47,904 bases of DNA, from positions 1 to 47,904 of the IMG/VR virus record IMGVR_UViG_3300035670_000342. One strand, given 5' to 3'. This document shows positions 5,990 to 12,556 of this stretch, piece by piece (position 1 is the stretch's first letter; every line of letters begins with the position of its first letter). Below the pieces are notes generated by a model. It was not told the DNA's origin. It did not search any database and saw nothing but the letters and a program-made list of their open reading frames with translations. This stretch comes from a virus. The translations under genes were made by a program, and so were the position numbers.

Positions 5990-6375
5990 TCCTCACCTCT
6001 GAATCGCCTTTCAGCGGGTTTTCCTTGCGGTTTCACTGGCGCTTTACCCAGTCGTTGCAACATATACTCAGCTTGCAGTTGAAGCTCTTTGGCTTCGATG
6101 GTGTCCCGGTCTTTCGGGTAGTGATTCTCAAGCAAATACTCAATGCGCTTGATGGCCTTCTCAAGCTGGCCGCGATGGAAAGTGTCAATCAGTTCTGCCA
6201 CGTGCTCCGGCAGTCGCATCTTCTGGATGTAACGATCCAAGCACGCACCGCAGCCATTCGGTTTCATCTGTCCAATGTGAGCAAGGCAATCCCGGTCAAC
6301 CTGCTCCACAAAACCACGCTTGCACCACTGGCAGACCCACTGAATCTCTACGGTATTGTCGGTGGCGGTAATCAT
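5986..6375 (-). CDS. Zinc-knuckle protein with helical tail (129 aa)
   Basis: Cys-Gln-Trp-Cys near residue 15 and Cys-Gly-Ala-Cys near residue 42 form a zinc site. A long helical segment (60-110) and a basic tail follow. It starts with a 4-base overlap with the stop of the replication initiator gene, so it is probably co-expressed with it. Role unknown. Confidence 0.6.
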   Translation of the reverse strand: MITATDNTVEIQWVCQWCKRGFVEQVDRDCLAHIGQMKPNGCGACLDRYIQKMRLPEHVAELIDTFHRGQLEKAIKRIEYLLENHYPKDRDTIEAKELQLQAEYMLQRLGKAPVKPQGKPAERRFRGEE

Positions 6376-7163
6376 CGGTTCCTCCGTTTTTTCTCCGCGT
6401 CCCGCCTATCCAGTTCCTTCGCGTGATTCTCCATAGTTACCAGCCATTGCCCAAACTTCTGCGGATCGGTGGCTGTAACGAGGCTTTGCGGCGTACCAGC
6501 AAGGGCGTCTTTGTGACGCGCCCAACAGTACACACTATCAACCTGATGGGCTTTGTAGCCACGGCGTAGGAGTTCACAGAGTTGGCCGTGTACCTGCTGA
6601 CGGTTAATGTCCAACGGAGCAAGCCCGAACCGCTCCATCCCTTTCCTGAGAAGGTCACGGGCAGCGGCCTGCTGGTCAACTGTCAGGGCAGGGAGGTCAT
6701 CGGCATCCGTCGAAGGTATGCGGCTCGGCAATTCAACCCTGCCGGCATCCTCCCCCTGCACCCCCTCCTTGTCTTTGTCCTTGTCTTTGTCTTTGTCCTT
6801 GTCCTGTACCCTATCTGATAGGGTATCTGATAACCTATCTGATAGCCTATGGCGTTCAATCAGCTCCAAAACGTGGTTATGCGCTCGACACTCACTAGAA
6901 AGCCGCCCGTACTGGAACGCGATAAAGCCCACAATCCAAACTTTGCCGCACTCCAAAACCTGTACCCTGCCGTTGAAAGCCTGTAGGTCGCTTGCGCAGA
7001 CTGGTTCACCGATTTGAAAACTTGCCAGCCCCCAATCAGCCTCCCAAACTCCTGCGGCATCGCACTTGTTACGAAGGTATTCCCACAGACACTTGTGCTT
7101 TAACGACAGTTGCCTGTACCAGGGTTTATCGTGCATTGCCGTATCCACAAATCGCTTTGCCAT
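6372..7163 (-). CDS. Phage replication initiator, O/DnaD-like (263 aa)
   Basis: The N-terminal Trp-Tyr-Arg...Leu-Trp-Glu-Tyr-Leu pattern, with Ala-Gly-Val-Trp and a Gly-Lys-Val-Trp-Ile turn, is the winged-helix start of phage O/DnaD-like initiators. A low-complexity linker follows (Leu-Ser-Asp-x repeats, then six Asp-Lys repeats). A C-terminal helical domain would bind the host helicase loader or helicase. ATG 7163 has GGAG upstream; the longer open frame runs through the structured leader and is rejected. The linker DNA holds three tandem 12-bp iterons (6812-6847), as in the lambda O gene where the origin lies inside the coding region. Confidence 0.75.
   Translation of the reverse strand: MAKRFVDTAMHDKPWYRQLSLKHKCLWEYLRNKCDAAGVWEADWGLASFQIGEPVCASDLQAFNGRVQVLECGKVWIVGFIAFQYGRLSSECRAHNHVLELIERHRLSDRLSDTLSDRVQDKDKDKDKDKDKEGVQGEDAGRVELPSRIPSTDADDLPALTVDQQAAARDLLRKGMERFGLAPLDINRQQVHGQLCELLRRGYKAHQVDSVYCWARHKDALAGTPQSLVTATDPQKFGQWLVTMENHAKELDRRDAEKKRRNR
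6769..6804 (-). repeat. Asp-Lys codon repeat
   Basis: Hexamer repeats (TTGTCT/TTGTCC on the + strand) encode six Asp-Lys pairs in the linker of the replication initiator. Such charged repeats are usual in this protein family. Confidence 0.8.
6812..6847. repeat. Three 12-bp tandem iterons, candidate origin core
   Basis: TATCTGATA occurs at 6812, 6824 and 6836 with an exact 12-bp period. Each copy is palindromic around its centre (TATC-T-GATA). They lie in the middle of the replication initiator gene, where they encode Leu-Ser-Asp-x. This matches the iteron-in-initiator origin design known from lambdoid phages. Confidence 0.6.
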
Positions 7164-7175
7164 CGCTAACACTCC

Positions 7176-7280
7176 AAAGAAAAAGCCCCCACCAGCCAGA
7201 GAATGCAGTCGGCGAGAAGCCGATGCGTGCCGGATAACCGGCGGCCAGTGGGGGCAAATTCTTGGTTGTTCTGCATTCTC
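7176..7280 (-). promoter_or_regulatory. Structured leader with terminator and competing stem
   Basis: On the minus-strand RNA a 13-bp stem forms between 7255-7243 and 7197-7185 and is followed by UUUUUCUUU (7184-7176). It is continuous only on this strand, where two positions become G-U pairs. It encloses GCCGG-UUAU-CCGGC (7242-7229) and UCGGC-UUCUC-GCCGA (7223-7209). A second perfect 10-bp stem (7280-7271 with 7208-7199) crosses it, so the two form a pseudoknot or exclude each other. The initiator start codon lies 13 nt after the U tract. This looks like an attenuator. Confidence 0.65.
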
Positions 7281-7294
7281 ACCTTCAATTGTGG

Positions 7295-7300
7295 TGTCAA
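7295..7300 (-). promoter_or_regulatory. Consensus -35 box TTGACA upstream of the initiator leader
   Basis: TTGACA is read on the minus strand. The hexamer 17 bp downstream (AATGCA) is a poor -10, so promoter activity is uncertain. If used, the transcript would begin near 7265 and lack the 5' arm of the competing stem. Confidence 0.35.
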
Positions 7301-7335
7301 CTACAGACGACCCACGGGTGAAAACCTGTCCTTTA

Positions 7336-7545
7336 TCACAGCAACGTACCTCGCATCGTATGTAGGCTCCGCTCAAACTCGTCTTGTGCGGGCTGGCCGT
7401 GCTCGATAAGCCAATTCTCACAAGCCAGTTTCAACTTGTCCCACCGTATCCCGTCACGGTGGCCGCTCGGATCATCGCCAAGTACACCGCGCTTGCCGCT
7501 GAATTGCTGACAGGCTCCTGACATCATGCGAGTGCGGTATTTCAT
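7336..7545 (-). CDS. Unknown early protein (69 aa)
   Basis: Starts at ATG 7545, overlapping the stop of the preceding gene (ATGA). It has a basic N-terminus, Gly-Asp-Asp-Pro-Ser-Gly-His in the middle and a C-terminal helix. No family is recognised. It ends about 80 bp before the structured leader of the replication initiator. Confidence 0.55.
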   Translation of the reverse strand: MKYRTRMMSGACQQFSGKRGVLGDDPSGHRDGIRWDKLKLACENWLIEHGQPAQDEFERSLHTMRGTLL

Positions 7546-7721
7546 TGCCGCACCCCAAGCACGACAATGGCCTTGATCCAATAGTAGGCCGCGATAATCG
7601 TCGGCGTGCTAATGACAATCCCCCAAAAGACAGCAGCACCCCAAGTCATACCCTCGGCACGGCGGCGGTTGCGGTTCAACGTCTCCAAGTCCCAATCATC
7701 TTCTCGGCGTGATGTGCTCAC
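7542..7721 (-). CDS. Small membrane protein (59 aa)
   Basis: GTG 7721 overlaps the stop of the upstream gene as GTGA and follows a clear GGAGGAG site. A charged N-terminal half (residues 1-24) precedes a hydrophobic segment (about 26-57) long enough for one or two membrane passes. The topology is probably N-in. It could be an early inner-membrane protein such as a superinfection-exclusion factor, but nothing in the sequence proves it. Confidence 0.65.
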   Translation of the reverse strand: MSTSRREDDWDLETLNRNRRRAEGMTWGAAVFWGIVISTPTIIAAYYWIKAIVVLGVRQ

Positions 7722-8620
7722 TTTGCTCCTCCTTGTTGTGGGTTGACTGCATAAACGTAGAAAATTCCGTTGATGACACTGTGCAAGCAGTAGCCCTTTC
7801 GCCACACTTCCATGCGGGATTCAGCGTGTTTTAAGTTCTTTTGCATTGTCGGCAAGTCGGCTACAGTTAAACAGATAGCCATCAATGCAGCATCCCTCGC
7901 CGCATCCCACGCCGCATACCACGCCGCATACCACGCCGCATCCCTCGCCGCATTGCTCGCCGCATCCCTCGCCGCATACCACGCCGCATCCCTCGCCGCA
8001 TACCACGCCGCAGCCCTCGCCGCAGCCCTCGCCGAACCCCACGCCGCATCCCACGCCGCATACCACGCCGCATCCCCCGCCGCATCCTCCGCCGAACCCC
8101 ACGCCGCATCCCACGCCGCATACCACGCCGCATACCACGCCGCATCACCCGCCGCATACTTCGCCGCATACCACGCCGCATCCCCCGCCGCATTGCTCGC
8201 CGCATCCCTAGCCGCATCCCTAGCCGCCAAAATATTATCGGCGTAAAAAACCTTCCAAGATGGGTCGGCATTGCCGTCAGGCTTACACCACCGAAAATCT
8301 TTGAGCATTTCAATATGGCTAATCGTTCTAGCCCACCATTGCGGCGCTTCCACCTCTCTCAACAGCCGCGCCGCCCGACACACGCACTTGTCACCCTCCC
8401 AACCGCCGATCTCTTTAGCCTCGGCCTCATAAACAGTCATGCCGAACTTTGCCCAACGTGAATAAGGCGCTGTCGTTAGGTGGATGCCGCGTGAGCAGAT
8501 ACGCAACTCCCCGCTGACGGTTTGCCATTTGCCGGGCTTTCCGTTTTTTGGCAATGACCACTTCATATTTCCGCCATGACAGGACTTGCCATCGACAAGC
8601 ACCTTGTAAAGCGTGTTCAT
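7718..8620 (-). CDS. DUF7666-like protein with long Ala-Ala-x-x repeat (300 aa)
   Basis: Residues 1-95 show the pattern of a small phage/bacterial domain (Ile-Cys-Ser-Arg-Gly-Ile-His-Leu, then Tyr-Glu-Ala-Glu-Ala-Lys-Glu-Ile, then Cys-Val-Cys-Arg-Ala-Ala) that I associate with DUF7666. Residues 131-246 are about 29 tandem tetrapeptides of the form Trp/Arg-x-Ala-Ala, with Trp-Tyr, Trp-Asp, Arg-Asp or Ser-Asn in the variable places. This should form a regular helical rod or solenoid. A normal C-terminus (247-300) follows. The ribosome binding site is GGAG, and the gene follows the structured RNA region. Function unknown. Confidence 0.7.
7883..8230 (-). repeat. 12-bp tandem array encoding Ala-Ala-x-x
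   Basis: About 29 units of 12 bp (on the + strand variants of GCCGCATACCAC) keep several frames open on both strands, which explains the apparent overlapping open frames. The array is variable in sequence but constant in period, a substrate for slippage or recombination. Confidence 0.9.
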
Positions 8621-11323: not shown

Positions 11324-12463
11324 CTAGTTCAACCGTATCGGCATGATAACTTCCAACTGCGCTACATTGTCCGCCACCACAACGCCAGGGTCACGCTCAT
11401 CGTCACCCAGCCGCAACTCGATTTCCTCGCAGTCGTGACTTTTCACGGCATCGGCTAGGAAATTCGGGTTGAAAGCAATCACGCCCGGCACTTTGCCGGT
11501 TATCGTGACTGCAATTTCCAGCTTGGCGAAATCGGCATTCTCTCCCATGACCGTCAACTCGCAGCAGTTGGAGAATGCCAGCTTCACGGTCGGGGCTTTT
11601 TGGGAGCATAGCGGCAGCAGCGTTGCCAGCGCCCCGAGCAACGCCACGCGGTTAAACCGCGCAACGCCCTTGTGCTCGGTCGGAATCACGCACTGATAGT
11701 TCGGATATTGCCCCTCGATCAACTTGGTCCTGATTTCCACCGGCACAATCACAGCCTTTTTGCCTTTCCCCGTGATTGTCTCGAAGGTGAACTTGGCGGC
11801 ATTGCGGACTGCCACAAGGTCCACTTGCAACTGGACCAAGCCGGTGCCGGTTAGCAACGCCAAGAGCTTTTCAACCGTATCGCTTGGCAGAATGATCGAA
11901 AAGTTTTCACCCCCCGAACAAACCGTGTCGAAATAAACCAAGCGCCGGCCATCGATGGCAACGGCGCGCAGTTGCGTGTCTTTCCGTTCCAAGTAAACAC
12001 CGTTCAAGACAAACCGGGTTTCGTCGTCGCTTTGCGCGTGTTGAACCCGGCGGAGCAAGTTCGCCAAATCAGCTTGAGGGATTGTCATTTCCCGGCTGGG
12101 TTTCAGCTCCGGTTCAACCGGATAATCCGCCGCCGCAAACGTGTCCGCCGCCATTGTCATTACCCCGCTGGCAATGCTCATTCGGAGTGGGTCCGCCGTG
12201 TCTAACGTCACGACACAGTTACAGCCCTTAACGGCATCGGCTAGGCGCTTGGCGTCAACGCAAGTCGCGCCAGGGTCCGCCACGTCCGCCGGCAGTTGAC
12301 CAGTTAGCGTGCAATCCAAGTCCGTTGCTTGGAATTGCATTGCGCCATTAGTGGCGGTCATGCGAATTGCGCCAAGGATCGGCAGGACCGGACGGCGCTC
12401 GGCGAACCGTTTACCAAGCACGGCCATTGCCGCCATGTTTTGAGTTGTCATCGTTGCTTTCAT
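11324..12463 (-). CDS. dnaN: DNA polymerase III beta subunit, sliding clamp (379 aa)
   Basis: The three-domain clamp pattern is clear. There is Arg-Pro-Val-Leu-Pro-Ile-Leu near residue 26, Phe-Val-Leu-Asn-Gly-Val-Tyr-Leu-Glu in domain 2, Ala-Ile-Asp-Gly-Arg-Arg-Leu-Val, Glu-Gly-Gln-Tyr-Pro-Asn-Tyr at the domain 2/3 border, and an Ile-Met-Pro-Ile-Arg-Leu end. The length fits the bacterial family. It would ring the DNA and tether a polymerase, probably the host's since no polymerase is seen here. ATG 12463 has GGAAAGGT upstream, preceded by a hairpin (12479-12492). Confidence 0.9.
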   Translation of the reverse strand: MKATMTTQNMAAMAVLGKRFAERRPVLPILGAIRMTATNGAMQFQATDLDCTLTGQLPADVADPGATCVDAKRLADAVKGCNCVVTLDTADPLRMSIASGVMTMAADTFAAADYPVEPELKPSREMTIPQADLANLLRRVQHAQSDDETRFVLNGVYLERKDTQLRAVAIDGRRLVYFDTVCSGGENFSIILPSDTVEKLLALLTGTGLVQLQVDLVAVRNAAKFTFETITGKGKKAVIVPVEIRTKLIEGQYPNYQCVIPTEHKGVARFNRVALLGALATLLPLCSQKAPTVKLAFSNCCELTVMGENADFAKLEIAVTITGKVPGVIAFNPNFLADAVKSHDCEEIELRLGDDERDPGVVVADNVAQLEVIMPIRLN

Positions 12464-12470
12464 CTGTTTG

Positions 12471-12556
12471 ACCTTTCCGCCCATATTTGGGCTGTTATCG
12501 TGTTCGGGACCATCCCGGCCACGCTTGCCGGCACTGGCAACTCAGCCAATGCCGGC
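12471..12556 (-). promoter_or_regulatory. Hairpin-SD cassette before dnaN
   Basis: GCCCA-AATA-TGGGC (12492-12479) abuts GGAAAGGT (12478-12471), 7 nt before the start codon. Upstream, GCCGGCA and TGCCGGC (12527-12556) form a longer stem with an inner TGGC/GCCA pair. Confidence 0.55.

Follow-up and report, generated by a model that had tools for sequence, protein, structure and literature searches.

To our knowledge, detailed accounts of how phages time and limit the initiation of their replication exist for few model systems. In P4, transcription of the replication genes is terminated early within their untranslated leader through pairing of a leader-derived RNA, the CI RNA (PMC4825925). In the repC attenuator of pT181, an intrinsic terminator in front of a replication initiator gene is combined with a 5' hairpin and kissing-loop recognition (PMC4878617), and the c4 antisense RNA (RF01695) is a phage regulatory RNA with complementary segments (PMC2864571). 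We analyzed a leader with likeness to all three in these respects, the parallel with P4 being a predicted termination in a replication-gene leader by pairing with complementary leader sequences. It lies in a viral DNA stretch of 47,904 nucleotides (IMG/VR record IMGVR_UViG_3300035670_000342), hereafter the window.

The loop-crossed terminator of the window

A sequence-only reading had described a 13-bp minus-strand terminator stem with two G-U pairs and a U tract, crossed by a second, perfect 10-bp stem, enclosing two small hairpins and followed immediately by the ribosome binding site of a replication initiator. We could retrace every one of these elements, given here in the 5' to 3' order of the minus strand:

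7271 to 7280, minus strand: 5' arm of the crossing stem, GAGAATGCAG; read from the sequence (10-bp match, 4 of 3000 shuffles)
Between GAGAATGCAG and GCCCCCACTGGCC, minus strand: linker of 15 nt; read from the sequence
7243 to 7255, minus strand: 5' arm of the terminator stem, GCCCCCACTGGCC; sequence and fold
7229 to 7242, minus strand: inner hairpin 1, GCCGG-TTAT-CCGGC; sequence and fold
7209 to 7223, minus strand: inner hairpin 2, TCGGC-TTCTC-GCCGA; abuts the crossing stem directly
7199 to 7208, minus strand: 3' arm of the crossing stem, CTGCATTCTC, within the terminator loop; sequence and shuffle test
Between CTGCATTCTC and GGCTGGTGGGGGC, minus strand: a single T; read from the sequence
7185 to 7197, minus strand: 3' arm of the terminator stem, GGCTGGTGGGGGC; sequence and fold
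7176 to 7184, minus strand: U tract, TTTTTCTTT; read from the sequence
7172 to 7175, minus strand: ribosome binding site GGAG; read from the sequence
6372 to 7163, minus strand: replication-initiator-type gene of 263 aa with its ATG at 7163-7161; assigned from a shared N-terminal domain, the families of its relatives and the gene neighbourhood

The terminator stem (7255-7243/7197-7185) comprises 13 bp including two G-U pairs, because of which it is continuous solely as minus-strand RNA. Its loop contains the two hairpins and the 10-nt segment 7208-7199, which forms 10 Watson-Crick pairs with 7280-7271 without a mismatch. Stem and U tract (7255-7176) make up a predicted intrinsic terminator that precedes the GGAG motif and the initiator ATG. 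The region 7290-7165 folds at -57.9 kcal/mol, compared with -39.5 +/- 3.9 in shuffles (z-score -4.8). Of 3000 dinucleotide shuffles, 4 contained a perfect match of 10 nt between the terminator loop and the 80 nt upstream, and an energy-based test of the pairing gave p=0.02. The loop-crossed terminator structure in the window is real.

We found no copies of the crossing arms beyond chance elsewhere in the window (one site with one mismatch lies within chance), and an exact-pattern scan for the leader returned zero further copies. Alignable relatives of this leader were not found either, and the covariation described below is that of other leader families. Rfam families gave no match in the window, and the sole match of a permissive Rfam search of 7100-7340 was a chance lncRNA. 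No promoter was recognized on either strand of 7150-7720 in a scan covering the sigma-70 type alone. An HDV-like ribozyme, in which the arm order is alike, was rejected by reasoning from the long inter-arm linker and the U-tract terminator, with scanning via Rfam alone.

That the downstream gene encodes a replication initiator is a well-supported inference, if not proof, drawn from its relatives. Pfam and PHROG searches with the 263-aa protein gave no match, nor did a PDB sequence search. The N-terminal ~107 residues are common to many phage proteins. A C-terminal domain, phrog_15768, is shared by the relatives L002, L017 and L389 with L361 and L363, and in the latter two the N-terminal half matches primosomal protein families of PHROG. 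L378, located downstream of the same leader as L361, L363 and L389, matches a replication initiation family. In named phages, proteins with a phrog_15768-type C-terminal region are encoded immediately upstream of a gene for a DNA helicase or replication protein P. The four initiators behind this same leader join differing N-terminal domains to a similar C-terminal part, which suggests domain swapping.

Several other features of the region were recorded. An iteron-like 12-bp repeat, CCTATCTGATAG, is present in 3.4 copies inside the initiator gene (6810-6850) and is reminiscent of the origins that lie within phage initiator genes. A QDKDKDKDK-like linker (window 6760-6810) is frequent in initiator relatives, a frequency biased by its use as one search pattern for them. 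A tandem repeat with 12-bp and 60-bp units is found at 7890-8220 (short unit 27 times) in the minus-strand ORF 7718-8620, and the minus strand at 11324-12484 encodes a phage homologue of the DNA polymerase III beta clamp in which all three Pfam domains are present.

Related leaders before other phage initiators

The earlier reading had proposed a search for homologous leaders upstream of phage initiators, and this search recovered the same topology in many phages. We gathered the leaders of downstream-gene relatives from IMG/VR and genome contigs, 134 after redundancy removal. Long-loop terminators are absent from most of these leaders and present in 28 of the 134, and are enriched relative to leaders of other genes at the same loci (50 of 790, p 6e-7). 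Loop pairing beats shuffles in 12 of the 28 at p<=0.05 and in 7 at p<=0.01, versus 4 and 1 of the 50 control leaders (Fisher p 0.0005 and 0.003, respectively). One of the four positive controls, L184, in fact belongs to type II (see below) and has a gene inserted between leader and initiator, and L190, another control leader, may be a similar case. Crossing in reversed order was uninformative as a control, because the same pairs were often recovered. No convincing counterpart was seen in the leaders of named Vibrio, Psychrobacter and Pseudanabaena phages, and a terminator-like BLAST match in Aaphi23, positioned among tail genes, was taken as chance.

In several relatives, the RNA upstream of the start-codon-proximal terminator contains a segment complementary to the terminator loop, the sequences being unrelated to each other:

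L017: AGCGAUAA pairs with UUAUCGCU
L029: GGGUCGUAC pairs with GUACGACCC
L083, L104, L110, L114, L116 and L031-L033: further leaders with upstream/loop complementarity

Inspected by eye, many of these are kissing loops, in which the loop of a small 5' hairpin faces the apical loop of a hairpin inside the terminator on the 3' side. The crossing element in several relatives is a kissing interaction and not a plain pseudoknot.

Covariation could be followed in two alignable families of Bacteroidetes-type phage leaders, types I and II, where the pairing is a kissing-loop helix of 7-8 bp. In the type II alignment (10 sequences), 98.8% of kissing cells are paired, and 5 of the 8 pairs show changes in both partners, with no pair changed in a single partner; shifting the partner by 1-3 columns lowers whole-structure pairing to 33-42%. 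The type I alignment (8 sequences) is 100% paired, with double changes in three kissing pairs; the allele GUUGCAG/CUGCAAC (L152, L222) was excluded from it because its inner stem is longer. A pattern search for type II that used the linker alone, and not the arms, returned at least 120 stretches with at least 50 distinct elements. Among the 50 distinct matches listed, 41 pair at all 8 positions in six alleles and 7 pair over 7 positions with a mismatch at the end, so that 48 of the 50 retain 7-8 bp. The other two, L471 and L400, join one allele's arm to another's partner with one internal mismatch. These counts are of sequences, many of them close kin, and not of independent events. As comparative evidence, these patterns show that pairing in type II elements is kept by selection. 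Kissing columns change faster than stems in type II (38% versus 11-19%) but not in type I (14% versus 30%), and we do not claim diversifying selection on them. In both types, the terminator comes with a conserved second pairing, seen as a covarying helix.

We weighed these results against an ordinary intrinsic terminator serving an upstream transcript, with a coincidental crossing stem and an initiator expressed by read-through or from its own promoter. Such a terminator would account for the strong minus-strand stem and its U tract, for a window energy-based p of merely 0.02 and for the lack of a comparable leader in the nearest protein relatives (L002-L004), but it would leave to coincidence the rare 10-nt match as well as the recurrence and covariation before initiator genes in other phages. 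A long loop holding two hairpins is also unusual for plain terminators, and we regard this explanation as unlikely. The same topology recurring before initiator-type genes in many phages lends strong comparative support to an attenuator.

The type II linker is near-invariant (1.3% difference), as might be expected if a host or phage protein bound the linker or inner hairpins and set termination, with loop pairing merely shaping the site. In line with this, one type II leader (L389 2963-3027, plus strand) resembles Chlorobi-RRM (RF01697) in its linker and terminator region, at E 1e-4 and a below-threshold 29.8 bits against a gathering cut-off of 45. The linker is absent from the window and other families, however, and neither the window nor seven other loci match Chlorobi-RRM, which makes control by such a protein improbable.

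The leader family is modular. A single kind of leader, type II, precedes initiator-type proteins of several families: MAKRF-type, two DUF1376-like forms (assigned below the Pfam cut-off) and a Lin1244-like form. An HNH or GIY-YIG homing-endonuclease-type gene is also found directly after it (L359, L364, L384, L404, L416 and others), and those initiators that could be followed past such a gene lie at most about 450 nt from the motif. Directly upstream of hairpin A, 49/49 type II and 15/15 type I leaders carry the box TAnnTTYG, compared with about 5% of shuffles. This box corresponds to the Bacteroidetes promoter element, and the leader RNA would therefore begin near hairpin A. These promoter motifs argue against an element that acts as DNA, for example as part of a replication origin, a very improbable reading for which its position beside an initiator gene with an iteron-like repeat could be cited; the stem is unbroken in minus-strand RNA alone owing to its G-U pairs, and the U tract and ribosome binding site come next. 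Least probable of all is a ligand-binding riboswitch controlling the terminator: several riboswitches place a pseudoknot beside their terminator, as here, but the paired arms differ wholly from family to family, a conserved ligand-binding core is not evident and no Rfam riboswitch family reaches its gathering cut-off in the window. From the earlier 'riboswitch or attenuator' we thus retain the attenuator, whose topology recurs and whose pairing covaries in alignable families.

Proposed control of the initiator gene

Our preferred reading, which we hold to be probable, is that the leader attenuates transcription of the replication initiator gene under the control of RNA-RNA loop pairing. Transcription of the minus strand would deliver the crossing 5' arm, the terminator 5' arm and the complementary loop segment in this order. 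The crossing pairing could form before the terminator 3' arm emerges and would enclose the terminator 5' arm, probably slowing the closing of the stem and favouring read-through into the initiator. In folding of the growing transcript, which models no pseudoknots, the predicted optimum contains the crossing stem for RNA ends at 7199 and at 7190 and switches to the terminator once the end reaches 7185, so that the crossing pairing can precede the terminator. If the crossing 5' arm were occupied or unpaired, the terminator would close and a leader RNA of ~100 nt would be released; RNA bound to this arm would thus be expected to favour termination. The effect may also have the opposite sign, above all in families with 7-nt kissing loops. 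The kissing helix and the terminator stem have no positions in common, so that the pairing would not have to act as an antiterminator and might even stabilize the terminator.

Both complementary segments are carried on the predicted terminated RNA. The released leader RNA would likely pair with nascent leaders in trans, and its accumulation would lower initiator synthesis. More tentatively, we consider it possible, though doubtful, that these leaders form a widespread undescribed class in which the terminated leader acts in trans on the nascent leaders of other genome copies via allele-specific kissing loops. Were this so, replication initiation would be under gene-dose or superinfection control without a repressor protein or separate antisense gene, and the kissing alleles would set incompatibility groups. 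Lysogenic immunity as a general role was rejected: the window and the L017 record have an integrase, and PF00589 occurs in 0/20 other phage records. PF00239 was found in 0/21 phage records searched, which may be fragments, and no HTH_3 repressor was found in the window.

Comparison with described leaders

A literature search of limited breadth returned no description of this leader class, and the recurring design, in which the letters differ but remain matched, suggests a family of RNA switches, so far undescribed, for the start of phage replication. A leader class shared by many phages and initiator families, with co-changing kissing alleles, would be a general RNA-based control point of replication and a possible source of orthogonal attenuators. 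The c4 antisense RNA differs in its target, antirepressor genes (PMC2864571), and RF01695 gave no match at the Rfam gathering score. In P4, processing yields the CI RNA, whose pairing partners seqA and seqC flank it (PMC4825925), whereas the partner in the window lies inside the loop of the intrinsic terminator and no processing is known. A third, seqC-like complementary segment downstream was not found in the window, where the arms occur at two sites and at one chance-level site with one mismatch. In pT181, a separate antisense RNA binds the leader, and the terminator stem faces competition from an antiterminator segment (PMC4878617); in the window, the complementary segment sits in the terminator's own loop and the sigma-70 scan recognized no antisense promoter. 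By analogy, the window leader may follow a logic like that of the P4 CI RNA or the pT181 attenuator in a different build.
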